A stretch of DNA of 64,000 nt, taken from positions 1-64,000 of the forward strand of contig NZ_CP033932.1 of assembly GCF_003815975.1 (NCBI RefSeq). Reading direction: 5' to 3'. Below, in pieces: positions 59,103 through 64,000 of the stretch; within the stretch, counting starts at the first letter, position 1; each line of letters starts with the position of its first letter. The notes beneath the pieces are model-generated. The model was not told the DNA's origin. It saw nothing but the letters and a program-made list of their open reading frames with translations, and ran no database searches. Source of the stretch: Chryseobacterium bernardetii (lineage in GTDB: Bacteria > Bacteroidota > Bacteroidia > Flavobacteriales > Weeksellaceae). Made by a program: the position numbers and the translations under genes.

Positions 59103-61475
59103 ATGAACCGGAAAATTATTCTTCTTTTAAGTCTTGCCGCCTCTTCATTCTTTTTTGCACAAAGTGTGGAAGGAACGGTTACAGATAAAGAAAATAAGCC
59201 AGTAGCAGAAACTGAAGTGCTTATTACCAGGAACAATGTTAAATTTTCTGCTATTACAGATGAAAAGGGATTGTTTAAAATTCCTTTAAAAGAGAATGGA
59301 GATTATATACTTGAGATAATTAAAGACGGGGTAAAAACCAATAGTGAAAAAATTGCTGTAAAGGGAAATGCCAGAAAAGACATTCAGATTAAGGATGAAC
59401 CTTTAGTTCAGAAGGTAGAAGGTGTAACCATCACAGCAAAGAAAAAATTATTCGAGAGAAAAGTAGACCGCCTGGTCTTCAATGTAGAAAATTCTGTAGC
59501 CTCTCAGGGAATTGACGCCATCGAAGCTCTAGCCAAAACACCAATGGTAAAAACCAGTGATGAAGCGATAAGTATTGCCGGAAAAAGCAATGTTGCGGTT
59601 ATGATTAACGACAGATTACTGAATCTGAACGGGCAGGAACTTATCAATTATCTGAAGACACTCCGTTCCGATGACATTCTTAAAATAGAAGTGATTACCA
59701 CGCCTCCTGCTAAGTATGACGCGGAAGGAAAAAGCGGATTAATTAATATCATCCTTAAGAAAAATGCCAATCTGGGCTGGAACGGATCTATTCAGACGTC
59801 AGGAAACTATTTTTGGGGAAAGCCCACTGTTTCTGCAAGAAGTGGTGCCACATTCAATTACCAGGGAGAAAAGCTTTCATTAAGCACCAACTTATCTGTT
59901 GGTGATAATTACTGGCAATATAATATCTACAATAATATGTCCGGTATATCAAATAATAATTACTGGAACAAGAATGGTGATAATCTTAATAACTACAAAT
60001 ACAAAAGCGGAAATATAAAAGCAGAATATAAGATCAATGATAAGAATCTTTTCGGTATCAATTATAACTATTCACATAGTAATCCTAAAGAAACGGGAGA
60101 AAGTGAATCTGTACGGTTCAATGGGAATGGTTTAACTCATATTATTTCCGATTTCAACAACAGAAACAGCCGGGATGTTCATAATGCAACGGCATTTTAT
60201 GAAACTAAAATAGACAGTGCCGGAGGAAAGCTGAACGTAACTGCCAATATGATGCTTAACAATTCCAACGCAAGAAATTTTTCAAATACAATTACCCCGG
60301 AATTGATTAACACAATGGCTAACCCTATCAGTAAATACAGGATTTATTCAGGACAGGCTGATCTGGAAAAAACATTTGGAAAAATAAAAACGGAATCCGG
60401 ATTAAAGTATACAAAGATCAAAAATGATTCTGAATTCAATTTCTTCGATATTAAAAATGGTGTATATGAACTGAACACCGGTAAAACCAATACTTTCTTT
60501 TATAACGAAGAAAATTATGCAGCTTATGTTTCAACCAATTTTAAGATCAGTGAGCAATGGGATGCTAAAGCCGGGCTTCGCTATGAATATACCACTTTGG
60601 AAGGTATTTCCATGAATGATAATACCTCAGCAAAGATCAAATATGGTAAATTCTTCCCTACTGCCTATTTAAGTTATAAGCCTAATGAAAACAATGCATT
60701 TTCATTAAGCTATTCCCGCAGAATTTCACGTCCGTATTTCGGGAACCTGAATCCGTTTAAGTATTTCACATCCAACTTTGAATATACTACAGGTAACCCT
60801 TATCTCTTACCTTCATTTTCAGATAACTTTGAATTCGGATATGTTTTAAACAATAACCTCAACATTACATTATATCACAGCTATAACAAAGATAGCTGGG
60901 ACAGGATTCAAATGATTGATGATAATTACAGATATACCATTGCCAAGAATTTCTATAATGAAAACCAGACGGGTATTAACATCAGTTATAATTACAATAA
61001 ACTGAAATGGCTGGAATCCAACATCTTTGTAAATGGTTACTATACGAAGGCAAAATCTTATGACCCTGCTATTCTGCCTGTTCCACCGGGATACAGTGCC
61101 AACGTAAACATCGATAATAATTTCTTCCTTAATAAAGAAAAAACAGTGACTTTTCTATTGGGCTTGTGGGGAAGTCTTCCCAACAGGGACGGAAATACTT
61201 ATTATTATACCAATGCCTCATTATACACAGGGCTGAAGCTGGCACTGATGGATAAAAAACTTCTTCTTAACCTTTATTTAAATGATGTCCTAAATACCAA
61301 CCGTGAAAAAGGAATAGAATATTATCCGGATTACAATATTGATTATCAATACAAAGGAATTACGAGAAATGTTCACCTTTCTCTCACTTATAAATTCGGA
61401 AATAATAATGTGAAAGGTGCAACTAAACAGGTGAAATTTGAAGAATCCAACAGAGCCGGTGGTGGCAATAATTAA
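59103..61475 (+). CDS. Outer membrane beta-barrel family receptor (OMP_b-brl_3)
   Basis: A 790-residue exported protein. After a signal peptide (MNRKIILLLSLAASSFFFAQS) comes a carboxypeptidase-regulatory-like domain (about 22-110), then a plug-like TonB-receptor region with GIDAIEALAKTPMVKTSD and EVITTPPAKYDAEGKSGLINIILKKN, and a long C-terminal beta-barrel. The lack of a canonical TonB box and of some plug parts fits the OMP_b-brl_3 family of Bacteroidota. Substrate unknown. Divergent from the Crp/Fnr gene. Confidence 0.9.
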   Translation: MNRKIILLLSLAASSFFFAQSVEGTVTDKENKPVAETEVLITRNNVKFSAITDEKGLFKIPLKENGDYILEIIKDGVKTNSEKIAVKGNARKDIQIKDEPLVQKVEGVTITAKKKLFERKVDRLVFNVENSVASQGIDAIEALAKTPMVKTSDEAISIAGKSNVAVMINDRLLNLNGQELINYLKTLRSDDILKIEVITTPPAKYDAEGKSGLINIILKKNANLGWNGSIQTSGNYFWGKPTVSARSGATFNYQGEKLSLSTNLSVGDNYWQYNIYNNMSGISNNNYWNKNGDNLNNYKYKSGNIKAEYKINDKNLFGINYNYSHSNPKETGESESVRFNGNGLTHIISDFNNRNSRDVHNATAFYETKIDSAGGKLNVTANMMLNNSNARNFSNTITPELINTMANPISKYRIYSGQADLEKTFGKIKTESGLKYTKIKNDSEFNFFDIKNGVYELNTGKTNTFFYNEENYAAYVSTNFKISEQWDAKAGLRYEYTTLEGISMNDNTSAKIKYGKFFPTAYLSYKPNENNAFSLSYSRRISRPYFGNLNPFKYFTSNFEYTTGNPYLLPSFSDNFEFGYVLNNNLNITLYHSYNKDSWDRIQMIDDNYRYTIAKNFYNENQTGINISYNYNKLKWLESNIFVNGYYTKAKSYDPAILPVPPGYSANVNIDNNFFLNKEKTVTFLLGLWGSLPNRDGNTYYYTNASLYTGLKLALMDKKLLLNLYLNDVLNTNREKGIEYYPDYNIDYQYKGITRNVHLSLTYKFGNNNVKGATKQVKFEESNRAGGGNN

Positions 61476-61587
61476 ATTTTCTTCAATAATAGCCATATAA
61501 ATACAAAAAACAGGATAAGAACAATAACCCGGCCGGCAGTTCCTTTCAAATAAGGTTCTGTTGGTCTTTTTATTTGGAAATTAAAAA

Positions 61588-61760
61588 ATTCGTAAATGTA
61601 AAAGGTGTTGATCTTACCAATTATACCATGAAAAAAGAGCTGATAACATGATAAAAAACATGTAAAGCATTTTTAACAGATTATGGCACAGAATTAGCTT
61701 AAGAAATGGCAAGTAAAATTGTTTTGAACCATTATTTTAGACCATTAAGATTCGTAAATG
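61588..61760 (+). repeat. ATTCGTAAATG direct repeat in the gap before tyrS
   Basis: ATTCGTAAATG appears at 61588-61598 and 61750-61760. Around the second copy, ACCATT and AATGGT arms form several small hairpins (61741-61819). The stretch 61476-61866 holds no gene I can support; its function is unknown, though it may carry further control of tyrS. Confidence 0.35.
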
Positions 61761-61826
61761 GTTAAGTTTTTTCTAAAAAAACAAATCTTGTTATAACCAC
61801 TACAATACATCTTAATGGTTTAAATA

Positions 61827-61858
61827 TTGGAACTTCAGGAAAAACCCTGCTATATTTA
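61827..61858 (+). promoter_or_regulatory. Possible promoter of the tyrS leader
   Basis: TTG (61827-61829), 21-bp gap, then TATATTTA (61851-61858), close to TAnnTTTG. Transcription would start about 61863-61865, only a few bases before the leader ATG, so either the leader is nearly leaderless or the real start is further upstream. Confidence 0.4.
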
Positions 61859-61866
61859 CCGTATTA

Positions 61867-61962
61867 ATGAAACACTTAAACAGCATATTGCGTCTTCCAT
61901 TCTTCAGTGAATATTATACTCCGAATTATCGTTCGGGAAGACTTTCTATATCTGTAATCTAA
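61867..61962 (+). CDS. Tyr-rich leader peptide of the tyrS attenuator
   Basis: A 31-codon open frame with ATG at 61867 and TAA at 61960-61962, too short to be called by ordinary tools. Its middle reads SEYYTPNYRSGR: adjacent Tyr codons 16 and 17 (61912-61917) and another at 21 (61927-61929). The stop codon lies in the loop of the antiterminator, 26 bp before the terminator stem. A ribosome halted on Tyr16/17 would cover CCGAA (61921-61925) and leave 61931 onward free. The position, the control codons and the downstream synthetase are those expected of an amino-acid leader. Coding itself is inferred from this fit. Confidence 0.65.
   Translation: MKHLNSILRLPFFSEYYTPNYRSGRLSISVI
61921..61936 (+). 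promoter_or_regulatory. Pause-like hairpin 1:2 in the tyrS leader
   Basis: CCGAA (61921-61925) pairs with TTCGG (61932-61936) around TTATCG. This is the segment 1:2 hairpin, which competes with the antiterminator for TTCGG and overlaps codons 19-24. Confidence 0.5.
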
Positions 61963-61996
61963 ATTAAATAATCGACTTAACATATAGAGCCCGGAC
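61931..61996 (+). promoter_or_regulatory. Antiterminator of the tyrS attenuator
   Basis: GTTCGGG (61931-61937) pairs with CCCGGAC (61990-61996) with one G-T pair, and TCTATAT (61945-61951) with ATATAGA (61982-61988): a bipartite 14-bp helix that takes up nine of the ten bases of the terminator's left arm. Both structures cannot form together. Confidence 0.6.
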
Positions 61997-62015
61997 AGTA
62001 TTGTCCGGGCTTTTT
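61988..62015 (+). terminator. tyrS attenuator terminator
   Basis: Perfect 10-bp stem AGCCCGGACA (61988-61997) and TGTCCGGGCT (62002-62011) with loop GTAT, followed by T5, only 20 bp upstream of the tyrS ATG and on the same strand. The position immediately before a synthetase gene, after a Tyr-rich short frame, argues for conditional termination. Confidence 0.85.
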
Positions 62016-62034
62016 CATTTAAAACTATTACAAC

Positions 62035-63234
62035 ATGATCCGTACATTAAAAGAAAATGTCTCTATTATCCTTCCGGAAAACGGATTGGAAGAGAAATTA
62101 AAACAGGCTAAAGAAGAAAACAGAAAACTCTCCATTAAACTGGGTTTTGATCCAACGGCTCCCGATCTGCATCTGGGACATGCTGTTGTACTTAAAAAAC
62201 TGAAAGAATTCCAGGATTGGGGACACCAGATTATTATTGTGGTAGGAAGCTTTACGGCAAGAATTGGCGACCCTACAGGAAAAAATAAGGCCAGAAAGCC
62301 ATTAAGTGCCGAAGACGTTCAGTATAATGCACAAACTTATATTAATCAATTGTCAAAAATCATTGATGTTGAAAAAACAAGAATTGTTTTCAACTCAGAT
62401 TGGCTCGATGCATTGAATTTCTCGGAGGTTATTCAACTGTTATCGAAAGTTACAGTGGCTCAGCTGATGCACAGAAATGATTTCAGCAAACGCTTTACAG
62501 AAAATACACCTATTGCCATGCATGAACTTGTATACCCAATTCTGCAGGGATTTGACTCTGTAAAAATTGAATGTGATATTGAAATGGGCGGAACAGATCA
62601 GCTTTTTAATTGTACCATGGGAAGACAGCTTCAGGAAGCTCATCAGATGCCTGCCCAAATTGTGATGTGTATGCCTCTGCTGAAAGGGCTTGACGGAAAA
62701 GAAAAAATGAGTAAATCCTTAAACAATATCATAGGACTAACCGATGCCCCTAATGAAATGTTTGGAAAAACCATGTCTATTCCGGATTCTTTAGTTGAAG
62801 AGTTTATTGATCTTACCACAGACTTTTCAACAGAAGAAAAAAACAGTTTAAAATTAAAAATGGAAGCCGGTGAAAATCCAATGAACATTAAAAAAATAAT
62901 TGCCAGAAATATCATCAGCCAATACCACAATGCTGAAGCTGCGGAAAATGCAGAAATATTTTTCAATAACCAATTCCAGAATAAGAATTTTGATAAAAAA
63001 AGCTTTGAACCTGTCCCCATTAGTATTTTACATCATGTTCAGAAGAAAACAACCGTTCTTGAGCTTTGCTACCAGTTAAAAAATGAACTCAGCAAATCAG
63101 CAGTCAGAAGGCTTATTGAAAGTGGCGGGGTTCAGATCAATTCTGCTAAAATCATAAATCCGGATCAGGAAATAGAACTTACACAAGAGATCAGGATAAA
63201 GATTGGCAAAAGAAACTTTTTTGAGCTTATCTAA
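62035..63234 (+). CDS. tyrS: Tyrosine--tRNA ligase, TyrZ-like type
   Basis: A 399-residue class Ic synthetase. The HIGH motif is PDLHLGHAVVL (46-49), the KMSKS motif is GKEKMSKSLNN, and the Tyr pocket strings IGDPTGKNKARKPL and MGGTDQLFNCTMGRQ are visible. The C-terminal S4 RNA-binding domain (KSAVRRLIESGGVQINSAKI) is present. In length and sequence style it resembles the TyrZ/short TyrRS group (about 400 residues) rather than the ~430-residue TyrRS usual in Flavobacteria, so a second TyrRS may exist elsewhere in the genome; that cannot be seen from here. It sits directly behind the attenuator. Confidence 0.93.
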   Translation: MIRTLKENVSIILPENGLEEKLKQAKEENRKLSIKLGFDPTAPDLHLGHAVVLKKLKEFQDWGHQIIIVVGSFTARIGDPTGKNKARKPLSAEDVQYNAQTYINQLSKIIDVEKTRIVFNSDWLDALNFSEVIQLLSKVTVAQLMHRNDFSKRFTENTPIAMHELVYPILQGFDSVKIECDIEMGGTDQLFNCTMGRQLQEAHQMPAQIVMCMPLLKGLDGKEKMSKSLNNIIGLTDAPNEMFGKTMSIPDSLVEEFIDLTTDFSTEEKNSLKLKMEAGENPMNIKKIIARNIISQYHNAEAAENAEIFFNNQFQNKNFDKKSFEPVPISILHHVQKKTTVLELCYQLKNELSKSAVRRLIESGGVQINSAKIINPDQEIELTQEIRIKIGKRNFFELI

Positions 63235-63348
63235 AGGAATTTAACTGCCGGGAGAATATACAGCTTCCGGCATTAATCTCTTATCTGTGTCAACTTTTTC
63301 GTCCAAATCCAATTAAATCAATATCTTCGCCCCAAGAAATAAAAAGCA

Positions 63349-63897
63349 ATGACGCAGGCTGAAATCCTTACCCTGATTGATGAAGAATTGTTTACTGACA
63401 ATATTAGAACGGAAGTCAGTGAACAAAAGATTGTATGGATGGATCCTTCAGGTATAGAAAATTCGGTATCTCCCCATCAGACGGCAATCAATAGCAATGG
63501 TGTTATTGCATGGTGGCAATGTAACGAAGCAGGAAAAGAAGAAGTCCGTATCAGGCTGAGGGAAAAGAAAGTGATCACATGGAAACCTCCCATCACTACA
63601 TTGGAACGGCCAGCCTTCCGGGATGGGCTTTTATATTTTTATGAAGACCATCTGATCATTAAGTATAAAGACACACATTATCAAAGGCTCTTTATTTTTA
63701 ATATTACAACTTTAAAAGACGAAGAAATTCTTATCAATGCCCTTACCATACAGGTAAAAATAATAGAAAATGAATTATTTTTAGGTGGGTTTTACCATGA
63801 TGAAGAGTTTGTAAAGATCACTATGTATCCGGATCATTTTGAAAAAGAAAATATTGATGAAGCTTATCTTCACCAAAGAAATATTACATTTGATTAA
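63349..63897 (+). CDS. Hypothetical protein
   Basis: A 182-residue, beta-rich soluble protein. Repeated strand-like segments (SEQKIVWMDPSGIENSV, LLYFYEDHLIIKYKDTHYQRLFIFNI, ELFLGGFYHDEEFVKITMY) suggest a beta-propeller-like or beta-sandwich fold. No family recognised. A TATCTTCG element lies shortly upstream. Confidence 0.7.
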   Translation: MTQAEILTLIDEELFTDNIRTEVSEQKIVWMDPSGIENSVSPHQTAINSNGVIAWWQCNEAGKEEVRIRLREKKVITWKPPITTLERPAFRDGLLYFYEDHLIIKYKDTHYQRLFIFNITTLKDEEILINALTIQVKIIENELFLGGFYHDEEFVKITMYPDHFEKENIDEAYLHQRNITFD

Positions 63898-63980
63898 CTT
63901 TACATTCAAGAGTTATTATTCAAGCATTAATTCTTTCCTATAATGGGGGAAGTATGGTCTCAAATCCGAATTCAGAAACT

Positions 63981-64000
63981 ATGAAAACTTTACTTACCTA
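63981..64000 (+). CDS. Possible start of a gene cut by the window edge
   Basis: ATG at 63981 opens MKTLLT, with the hydrophobic beginning of a possible signal peptide, and runs off the end. Too short for a family call. Confidence 0.3.

Follow-up and report, generated by a model that had tools for sequence, protein, structure and literature searches.

In Chryseobacterium bernardetii the gene tyrS2, which encodes an accessory tyrosyl-tRNA synthetase (TyrRS), is very probably controlled by a ribosome-mediated transcription attenuator that reports the charging of tyrosyl-tRNA. The locus lies in the window, by which we mean the whole 64,000-nucleotide stretch of DNA that was analysed, and all its features described here are on the forward (+) strand. 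The leader and the RNA elements at this locus are real and go beyond chance. Sequence comparison gives good support to a Tyr-codon, ribosome-mediated attenuator, in which the spare TyrRS is probably turned on only when a ribosome stalls at the leader Tyr codons; stalling, termination and induction by tyrosine limitation are what such an arrangement would entail, and its alternative pairings are predictions.

The leader ORF (61867-61962) has 31 codons and encodes MKHLNSILRLPFFSEYYTPNYRSGRLSISVI, with the regulatory Tyr16-Tyr17 codons TAT TAT at 61912-61917, a Tyr21 codon at 61927-61929 and a stop codon at 61960. A small hairpin, CCGAA/TTCGG (61921-61936), would mask the beginning of element 2 once a ribosome has moved past it. 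Element 2 consists of GTTCGGG (61931-61937) and TCTATAT (61945-61951), which pair respectively with CCCGGAC (61990-61996; this helix includes one U-G pair) and with ATATAGA (61982-61988); these two segments form element 3, which overlaps the left arm of the terminator and can therefore pair with element 2 or with element 4. The intrinsic terminator (61988-62015) has a perfect 10-bp stem at 61988-62011 with a loop of 4, followed by T5, and ends 19 nt before the ATG of tyrS2 at 62035. The initial annotation had read this region as a tyrosine leader-peptide attenuator on the basis of the frame, the hairpin, the two-part antiterminator and the terminator; all of these were found again where it had placed them, and the reading is supported, having passed the sequence-based attempts at refutation.

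Three features go beyond that annotation, namely element 1, a -7 box of the TAnnTTTG type and a second TyrRS in the genome. Element 1 (61880-61883, 61885-61888 and 61892-61898, within codons 5-11) is composed of ACAG/ATAT at 61880-61888 and GTCTTCC at 61892-61898, and in the predicted fold it pairs with element 2 at 61936-61942 and 61948-61955, giving an anti-antiterminator. With this element the set of 1:2, 2:3 and 3:4 pairings is complete, as in classical four-element attenuators. The region 61864-62020 (157 nt) has a folding energy of -40.9 kcal/mol; 200 dinucleotide shuffles averaged -23.0 (sd 3.1), and not one was as good (z -5.7). The minimum-energy fold of the region contains both the terminator and the helix between elements 1 and 2.

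The same arrangement was found in relatives. We compared 102 tyrS2 loci, comprising the window, the best 80 of 143 relatives obtained from a TyrRS scan of named genome contigs, one further locus and 20 loci from a set of 296 genomes; some of them represent the same species in two collections, and 93 leaders are distinct. Most loci are from Chryseobacterium, followed by Flavobacterium, Gelidibacter, Arenibacter and other Flavobacteriales. In all 102 a homologous leader (MKxLNxILRLPFFSxYY) and a terminator precede tyrS2. The peptide motif, which was written after the sequences had been read, matched 101 of the 102, and locus L003 has the same leader peptide with a GTG start. The leaders fall into two classes, with 79 loci of Chryseobacterium type and 23 of Flavobacterium type. 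Conservation of the frame and of its Tyr codons was among the checks proposed with the initial annotation, and Tyr16 and Tyr17 are both present in 93/93 distinct leaders. The residues K2, L8, P11, F13, Y16 and Y17 are invariant in these leaders, and five of the six codons vary synonymously. The Tyr16 codon is TAT in all 93, and Tyr17 is encoded by TAT in 54 and TAC in 39. In three loci (L149, L154 and L158) a one-base indel after the Tyr codons gives rise to a new C-terminal peptide and another stop codon, with the core of element 2 intact.

This core, G[UC]UCGG, is kept in 93/93 distinct leaders. The core of the 2:3 pairing is formed by GUUCGG with CCG(G/A)AC in the Chryseobacterium-type class and by GCUCGG with CCG(G/A)GC in the Flavobacterium-type class; it is likewise intact in all 93, so that the pairing is not broken in relatives, and the few C-to-U changes retain a G-U pair. 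Among 43 representatives all six positions are 100% paired, and 14 of 258 cells are changed on both sides, against a shuffled mean of 4.6 (0/500 shuffles as high), all 14 at one pair and as a single event on a quick TyrRS tree. At the variable position of element 2 the letters of elements 2, 3 and 4 co-vary in 102/102 loci (79 U-A-U, 12 C-G-U and 11 C-G-C); on the same tree position 4 of element 3 changes 4 times and its partner in element 4 changes 6 times. Pairing in the terminator amounts to 98.8%, and five of its pairs have two-sided changes among the representatives. Compensatory changes, which had been named as a check, are thus seen in both stems, one two-sided change in the antiterminator and five pairs in the terminator.

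The proposal of a two-part antiterminator held for its core half; the second half is weaker, with 91% pairing for the Chryseobacterium class and 60-75% for the corresponding Flavobacterium-class helices, and the outer 2:3 helices of the latter class showed covariation no better than slid controls. The 1:2 helix is paired in 89.1% of the cells in A1 and 90.1% in A2, above every slid control, and its covariation did not exceed that of shuffles, 209/500 of which were as high in A1 and 114/500 in A2. The CCG:CGG of the small hairpin is kept in 69-70 of the 70 A1 rows, without covariation, and a CCG at its place occurs in 1 of the 23 leaders of the Flavobacterium-type class. Of the Flavobacterium-class leaders (L061-L082), 15 of 23 have, just before GCTCGG, a hairpin (TATTATT/AATAATA) whose left arm consists of the Tyr codons.

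The predicted folds were compared with and without a mimic of the stalled ribosome, in which nucleotides 1-58 were masked, as by a ribosome positioned at Tyr16/Tyr17, and element 4 was not yet made. The minimum-energy fold of this masked RNA holds the 2:3 pairing in 93/93 leaders. In the full-length RNA the 3:4 pairing is found in 91/93 and the 1:2 pairing in 73/93 of the minimum-energy folds. Once element 4 is present, 2:3 is missing from the masked minimum-energy fold in 93/93, which means that the switch must work by timing, like classical attenuators. Compared with composition shuffles the masked fold has a mean z of -2.1 in the Chryseobacterium-type class and -1.5 in the Flavobacterium-type class; alone it is weak evidence, because 5% and 13% of the shuffles, respectively, reach the observed energy.

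A promoter of the Bacteroidota type lies just upstream of the leader, with TTGG at 61827-61830 and the -7 box TATATTTA at 61851-61858 (TAnnTTTG). The box ends 8 nt upstream of the leader ATG and the leader 5' UTR would therefore be about 4 nt, with a putative transcription start expected near 61863. In Flavobacterium psychrophilum the TAnnTTTG box is placed at -12 to -5 relative to the start (PMC9723704), from which a 5' UTR of 1-5 nt is predicted for the tyrS2 leader; the same source gives 5.5% of mRNAs as leaderless in that species. Among 94 distinct upstream regions, 84 have a TAnnTTTG match of at least 5/6 within 3-15 nt of the leader start (score 6 in 54, score 5 in 30), and in 88 the best match is 5-9 nt from the start codon. 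In five control windows farther upstream, score 6 was reached in 0-1/94 and score 5 in 1-43/94.

A repeat scan also identified an inverted repeat upstream of this promoter, adjoining the -33 region, with arms at 61736-61751 and 61809-61824 (TTTAGACCATTAAGAT / ATCTTAATGGTTTAAA). The arms hold TAATGGTT-like half-sites, the right-hand one being conserved in 51 of 94 loci. The block CTTAATGGTTTAAATATTGG (at most 2 mismatches) occurs in these 51/94 distinct loci, only in the Chryseobacterium-type class (51/71), and 48 of the 51 also have the inverted half, which, in the three loci examined for repeats, lies at a distance of 53-57 nt. The genome has a single copy of the region 61690-61850, the other matches among those listed being 16-30 nt long. 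The inverted repeat 61736-61824 is possibly the operator of some regulator, optional to the system, and the CTTAATGGTTTAAATATTGG block may add a second layer of control in the Chryseobacterium-type class.

Gene tyrS2 (62035-63234) encodes a protein of 399 aa with the motifs HLGH and KMSKS, assigned to NCBIfam TIGR00234, whose closest solved structures are 6bqy and 1h3e. The catalytic motifs H[LI]GH and KMSKS are intact in 102/102 loci. The initial annotation had named the target tyrS; the gene does encode a TyrRS, but it is not the housekeeping one, since a second, strongly conserved TyrRS is present in all carriers. In the same genome this other TyrRS is encoded at 2.7 Mb and is 29% identical; its start is closely preceded by a promoter-like TAnnTTTG box, and no leader was found upstream of it. 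Among 296 Flavobacteriales genomes tyrS2 was found in 22, all of them in the genus of the window (41 sampled), and a wider scan of relatives found it also outside the genus, more rarely. All 22 genomes hold both enzymes, 28-30% identical to each other. Relative to C. bernardetii, the housekeeping TyrRS of the other 21 genomes is 95-99% identical and the tyrS2 type 74-88%. By these comparisons tyrS2 encodes an accessory TyrRS that is patchily distributed and evolves faster.

The gene neighbourhoods of tyrS2 differ between loci, and in flanks of up to 2.5 kb at 81 loci none of the 25 largest flanking families was common to loci below and above L061. Chryseobacterium tagetis (L059) has a Flavobacterium-class leader and a tyrS2 that clusters with those of Vaginella and Arenibacter in the quick tree of TyrRS sequences. 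This placement within the Flavobacterium-class clade suggests transfer, and the whole leader-tyrS2 unit of C. tagetis was likely acquired horizontally. A plasmid search for tyrS2 matched 13 records, all below 60% identity, and ten genera were named among these matches, none of which we take to be a genus of Bacteroidota.

In the 296 Flavobacteriales genomes the leader is found with tyrS2 and nowhere else at full strength. When they were scanned with a covariance model of the leader, under stricter filters at the cost of some weak matches, 22 strong matches (at least 119.9 bits) were obtained, in exactly the 22 genomes with tyrS2 and always directly upstream of it; the next best match scored 51.7 bits. 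As the model was built partly from the same sequences, the informative part is the absence of the leader elsewhere. The best leader-model score was 27.3 bits at the housekeeping TyrRS (22), hisG, pheS and trpS loci, which indicates that these have no such leader, and by eye no cognate leader was seen in the 420 nt upstream of pheS and trpS of the window's own genome. Outside the order, at 28 loci of related TyrRS from other members of the phylum (45-48% identical), the sequence immediately before the gene holds no YY-containing ORF; five of them have Y-x-Y in a frame resembling the end of the upstream gene. A search for the LRLPFF pattern in 25 genomes gave 150 matches, versus 143 in the reversed control, and is thus uninformative on whether the leader serves as a module of other genes.

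Besides the strong matches there were 71 weak rows (at most 51.7 bits), nine of which were read. Seven are at the ends of other genes, including two ribosomal protein L7/L12 genes, one of them in the same genome as the window, and one TatA-like gene, and look like ordinary terminators. In G314, a genome of the same genus without tyrS2, a decayed Flavobacterium-class leader (MKTLNNILLLTFSPYYYRVIFARR...) is present on the minus strand of L234 (3384-3496; also L196), where GCTCGG is kept and the terminator is truncated in its right arm; it is a relic of a lost leader-tyrS2 unit. In G441, of the same order, a weak match on the minus strand of L198 (about 977-1108) contains an ORF, MKTIKCHTNFYTMWISSARASME, that includes GCAAGGGC, a repeat of the right arm of the terminator standing behind it. 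Farther along come a second T-run hairpin and a gene lacking a Pfam match. This may be another leader element.

From these elements we propose the following mechanism. Transcription would begin about 4 nt upstream of the leader AUG. When Tyr-tRNA is ample, the ribosome would reach the stop codon and cover the 3' part of element 2, the rest of which would be held by the CCG hairpin, or by element 1 after the ribosome departs; with element 2 occupied, element 3 would be free for element 4 and transcription would terminate at 62015. When Tyr-tRNA is scarce, be it by tyrosine shortage or because the housekeeping TyrRS is blocked or saturated, a ribosome stalled at Tyr16/Tyr17 would cover element 1, allowing element 2 to pair with element 3 ahead of the synthesis of element 4, so that tyrS2 would be transcribed. 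In an untranslated leader the 1:2 and 3:4 pairings would form, keeping tyrS2 off.

The two halves of this leader are under different constraint. Codons 2-17 (61870-61917; KxLNxILRLPFFSxYY) have a pN/pS of 0.08 in the Chryseobacterium-type class, 0.21 in the Flavobacterium-type class and 0.19 between classes (overall range 0.06-0.21), as calculated from the 70 distinct rows of the first class less L149, L154, L158 and L056 and from the 23 of the second. For the ILRLPFF segment the ratio is 0.05 in the Chryseobacterium-type class (pS 0.54), again 0.05 between classes (pS 0.55) and 0.08 in the Flavobacterium-type class, and the other two frames of this N-terminal part give ratios of at least 1.0. 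Moreover Leu10 is kept through the codons CTT, TTA, TTG and CTC, and Pro11 through CCT, CCA and CCG. For codons 18-27 the ratio is 1.06 in the Chryseobacterium-type and 0.95 in the Flavobacterium-type class, and in the former class the synonymous sites of this 3' half are conserved too (pS 0.17-0.19). This contrast, together with the tolerated frameshifts, indicates that the N-terminal half is selected as a peptide, and that the second half is not, its RNA elements being kept.

A histidine leader before hisG was used as a control. Of 39 Chryseobacterium hisG loci found, 30 were inspected, and all 30 have the leader, with 22 distinct sequences; that of C. bernardetii itself, MKPIFLALHHYHHHLC (L201, G000:C1 near 3831200), precedes hisG and is followed, as seen by eye, by a hairpin and a T-run. 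The pN/pS of the His leader is 0.30 for codons 2-16, 0.42 before the His run and 0.16 within it. For the Tyr leader the ratio over codons 2-15 is 0.07, as calculated from 62 distinct rows with nine divergent or frameshifted loci excluded; the comparison involves one control leader, 22 distinct short sequences and a lower pS (0.30). The much lower constraint on the His peptide hints at a nascent-chain role for the Tyr leader, and a contribution of the nascent chain to the stall would be the simplest reason for the N-terminal peptide constraint.

It is therefore possible, although we regard it as doubtful, that the nascent ILRLPFF makes or strengthens the arrest at the Tyr codons and perhaps senses free tyrosine or an inhibitor besides Tyr-tRNA. 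The low ratios of this segment and of codons 2-17, the retention of Leu10 and Pro11 through varied codons and the difference from the His leader favour this idea, but the overlap with element 1 and the presence of Phe12-Phe13 complicate the reading of the constraint. In such a hybrid sensor, which we put forward tentatively, ILRLPFF in the exit tunnel would set an arrest that is released by Tyr-tRNA at Tyr16/Tyr17, and the spare TyrRS would come on when the housekeeping enzyme fails through an inhibitor, a tyrosine analogue or tyrosine shortage. The constraint on codons 2-17 would also suit a leader peptide that acts in trans after its release, the RNA switch being only part of its role, as has a precedent in peTrpL of Sinorhizobium meliloti (PMC7298713); however, the C-terminal half frameshifts freely in L149, L154 and L158, and across the 296 genomes the full-strength leader is never apart from tyrS2, so that we consider this improbable.

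Two further explanations dispense with a stalled ribosome as the sensor. If TyrRS2 or another factor bound the leader RNA, making the small ORF secondary, then the ratio close to 1 in codons 18-27 and their conserved synonymous sites in the Chryseobacterium-type class would fit, but the Tyr codons in 93/93 leaders and the coding-type substitutions in codons 2-17 would lack a reason. Such a protein-binding or autogenous switch is thus very unlikely, and the leader also matches no T-box or other Rfam family: in 60000-64000 the T-box model gave nothing up to E = 1, the only two matches at the locus up to that value are sub-threshold ones to eukaryotic RNAs, taken as chance, and no family reached the gathering threshold in L066, L061 and L196. 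A T-box riboswitch was rejected on the same grounds. The least probable explanation, to which we give almost no credence, is that the terminator ends an unrelated small RNA and that tyrS2 has its own promoter. A strong terminator does stand between the leader and tyrS2, and a scan for E. coli-type promoters, which gave 20 sites in the scanned region versus 12.9 expected, found one weak site (9/12) at 61977-62004, overlapping the terminator. Nevertheless no TAnnTTTG-like box was seen by eye at 61990-62035, directly before tyrS2, the pairing of element 3 with element 2 as well as with element 4 is under constraint, and in the 296 genomes the full-strength leader and the gene always go together. 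The attenuator governed by translation of the leader Tyr codons is the reading that we retain.

Classical attenuators of aminoacyl-tRNA synthetase genes have been described for trpS and leuS in Streptomyces and for pheST in gamma-proteobacteria; none of those named in PMC1262725 is for tyrosine, for which that source names T-boxes in other species. In Flavobacterium psychrophilum clues of attenuation have been reported ahead of amino-acid operons, along with structured 5' UTRs in synthetase mRNAs, the examples named being pheA, hisG and alaS, and tyrS does not appear in the main text (PMC9723704). The initial annotation took a leader-peptide attenuator for TyrRS to be undescribed in Bacteroidota, and we found no description of one; attenuation by leader peptides in general is not new to the phylum, given these clues and the His leaders before hisG. 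We recognised no tyrosine leader attenuator, nor one before a tyrS of Bacteroidota, in the open-access literature searched; Table S7 of PMC9723704 and Lopatovskaya et al. 2010, on attenuation of aminoacyl-tRNA operons, may hold a mention. As far as checked, the class of mechanism is known, and the novelty lies in the use of tyrosine, in the lineage, in an accessory gene as the target and in a leader constrained as a peptide.

The 93 distinct leaders form a very regular natural series in which one half is constrained as a peptide and the other is not, so that codon sensing and nascent-chain effects are directly separable. Moreover, since about half of the sampled genomes of the genus (22/41) keep tyrS2, always behind the switch, the question arises of what attacks tyrosine charging in these bacteria.

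One of the nearest parallels is trpRS1 of Streptomyces coelicolor, which Vecchione and Sello are said to have described in 2010 as an auxiliary, antibiotic-resistant TrpRS under ribosome-mediated attenuation. There too a second, non-housekeeping synthetase is placed under this type of control; the systems differ in that trpRS1 concerns Trp and Actinobacteria, whereas tyrS2 concerns Tyr and Bacteroidota and has a near-leaderless leader whose N-terminal half is constrained as a peptide. Present in the same organisms, the His leader of hisG is likewise a short ORF with cognate codons, there before a biosynthetic gene; it differs in its predicted 5' UTR of about 12-17 nt, compared with 1-5 nt, and in the weaker peptide constraint on the codons before its His run. 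In Bacillus subtilis, tyrZ is under a T box and a MarR regulator (Williams-Wagner 2015, via PMC9437257), and is likewise a second TyrRS whose control reads tRNA charging; the T-box reads the tRNA directly, whereas at tyrS2, where no T-box was found, a translated leader would do so. If this is true, Bacteroidota would gain a leader-peptide counterpart to the Bacillus tyrZ T-box, with unrelated RNA mechanisms coupling a spare TyrRS to the charging of tRNA.
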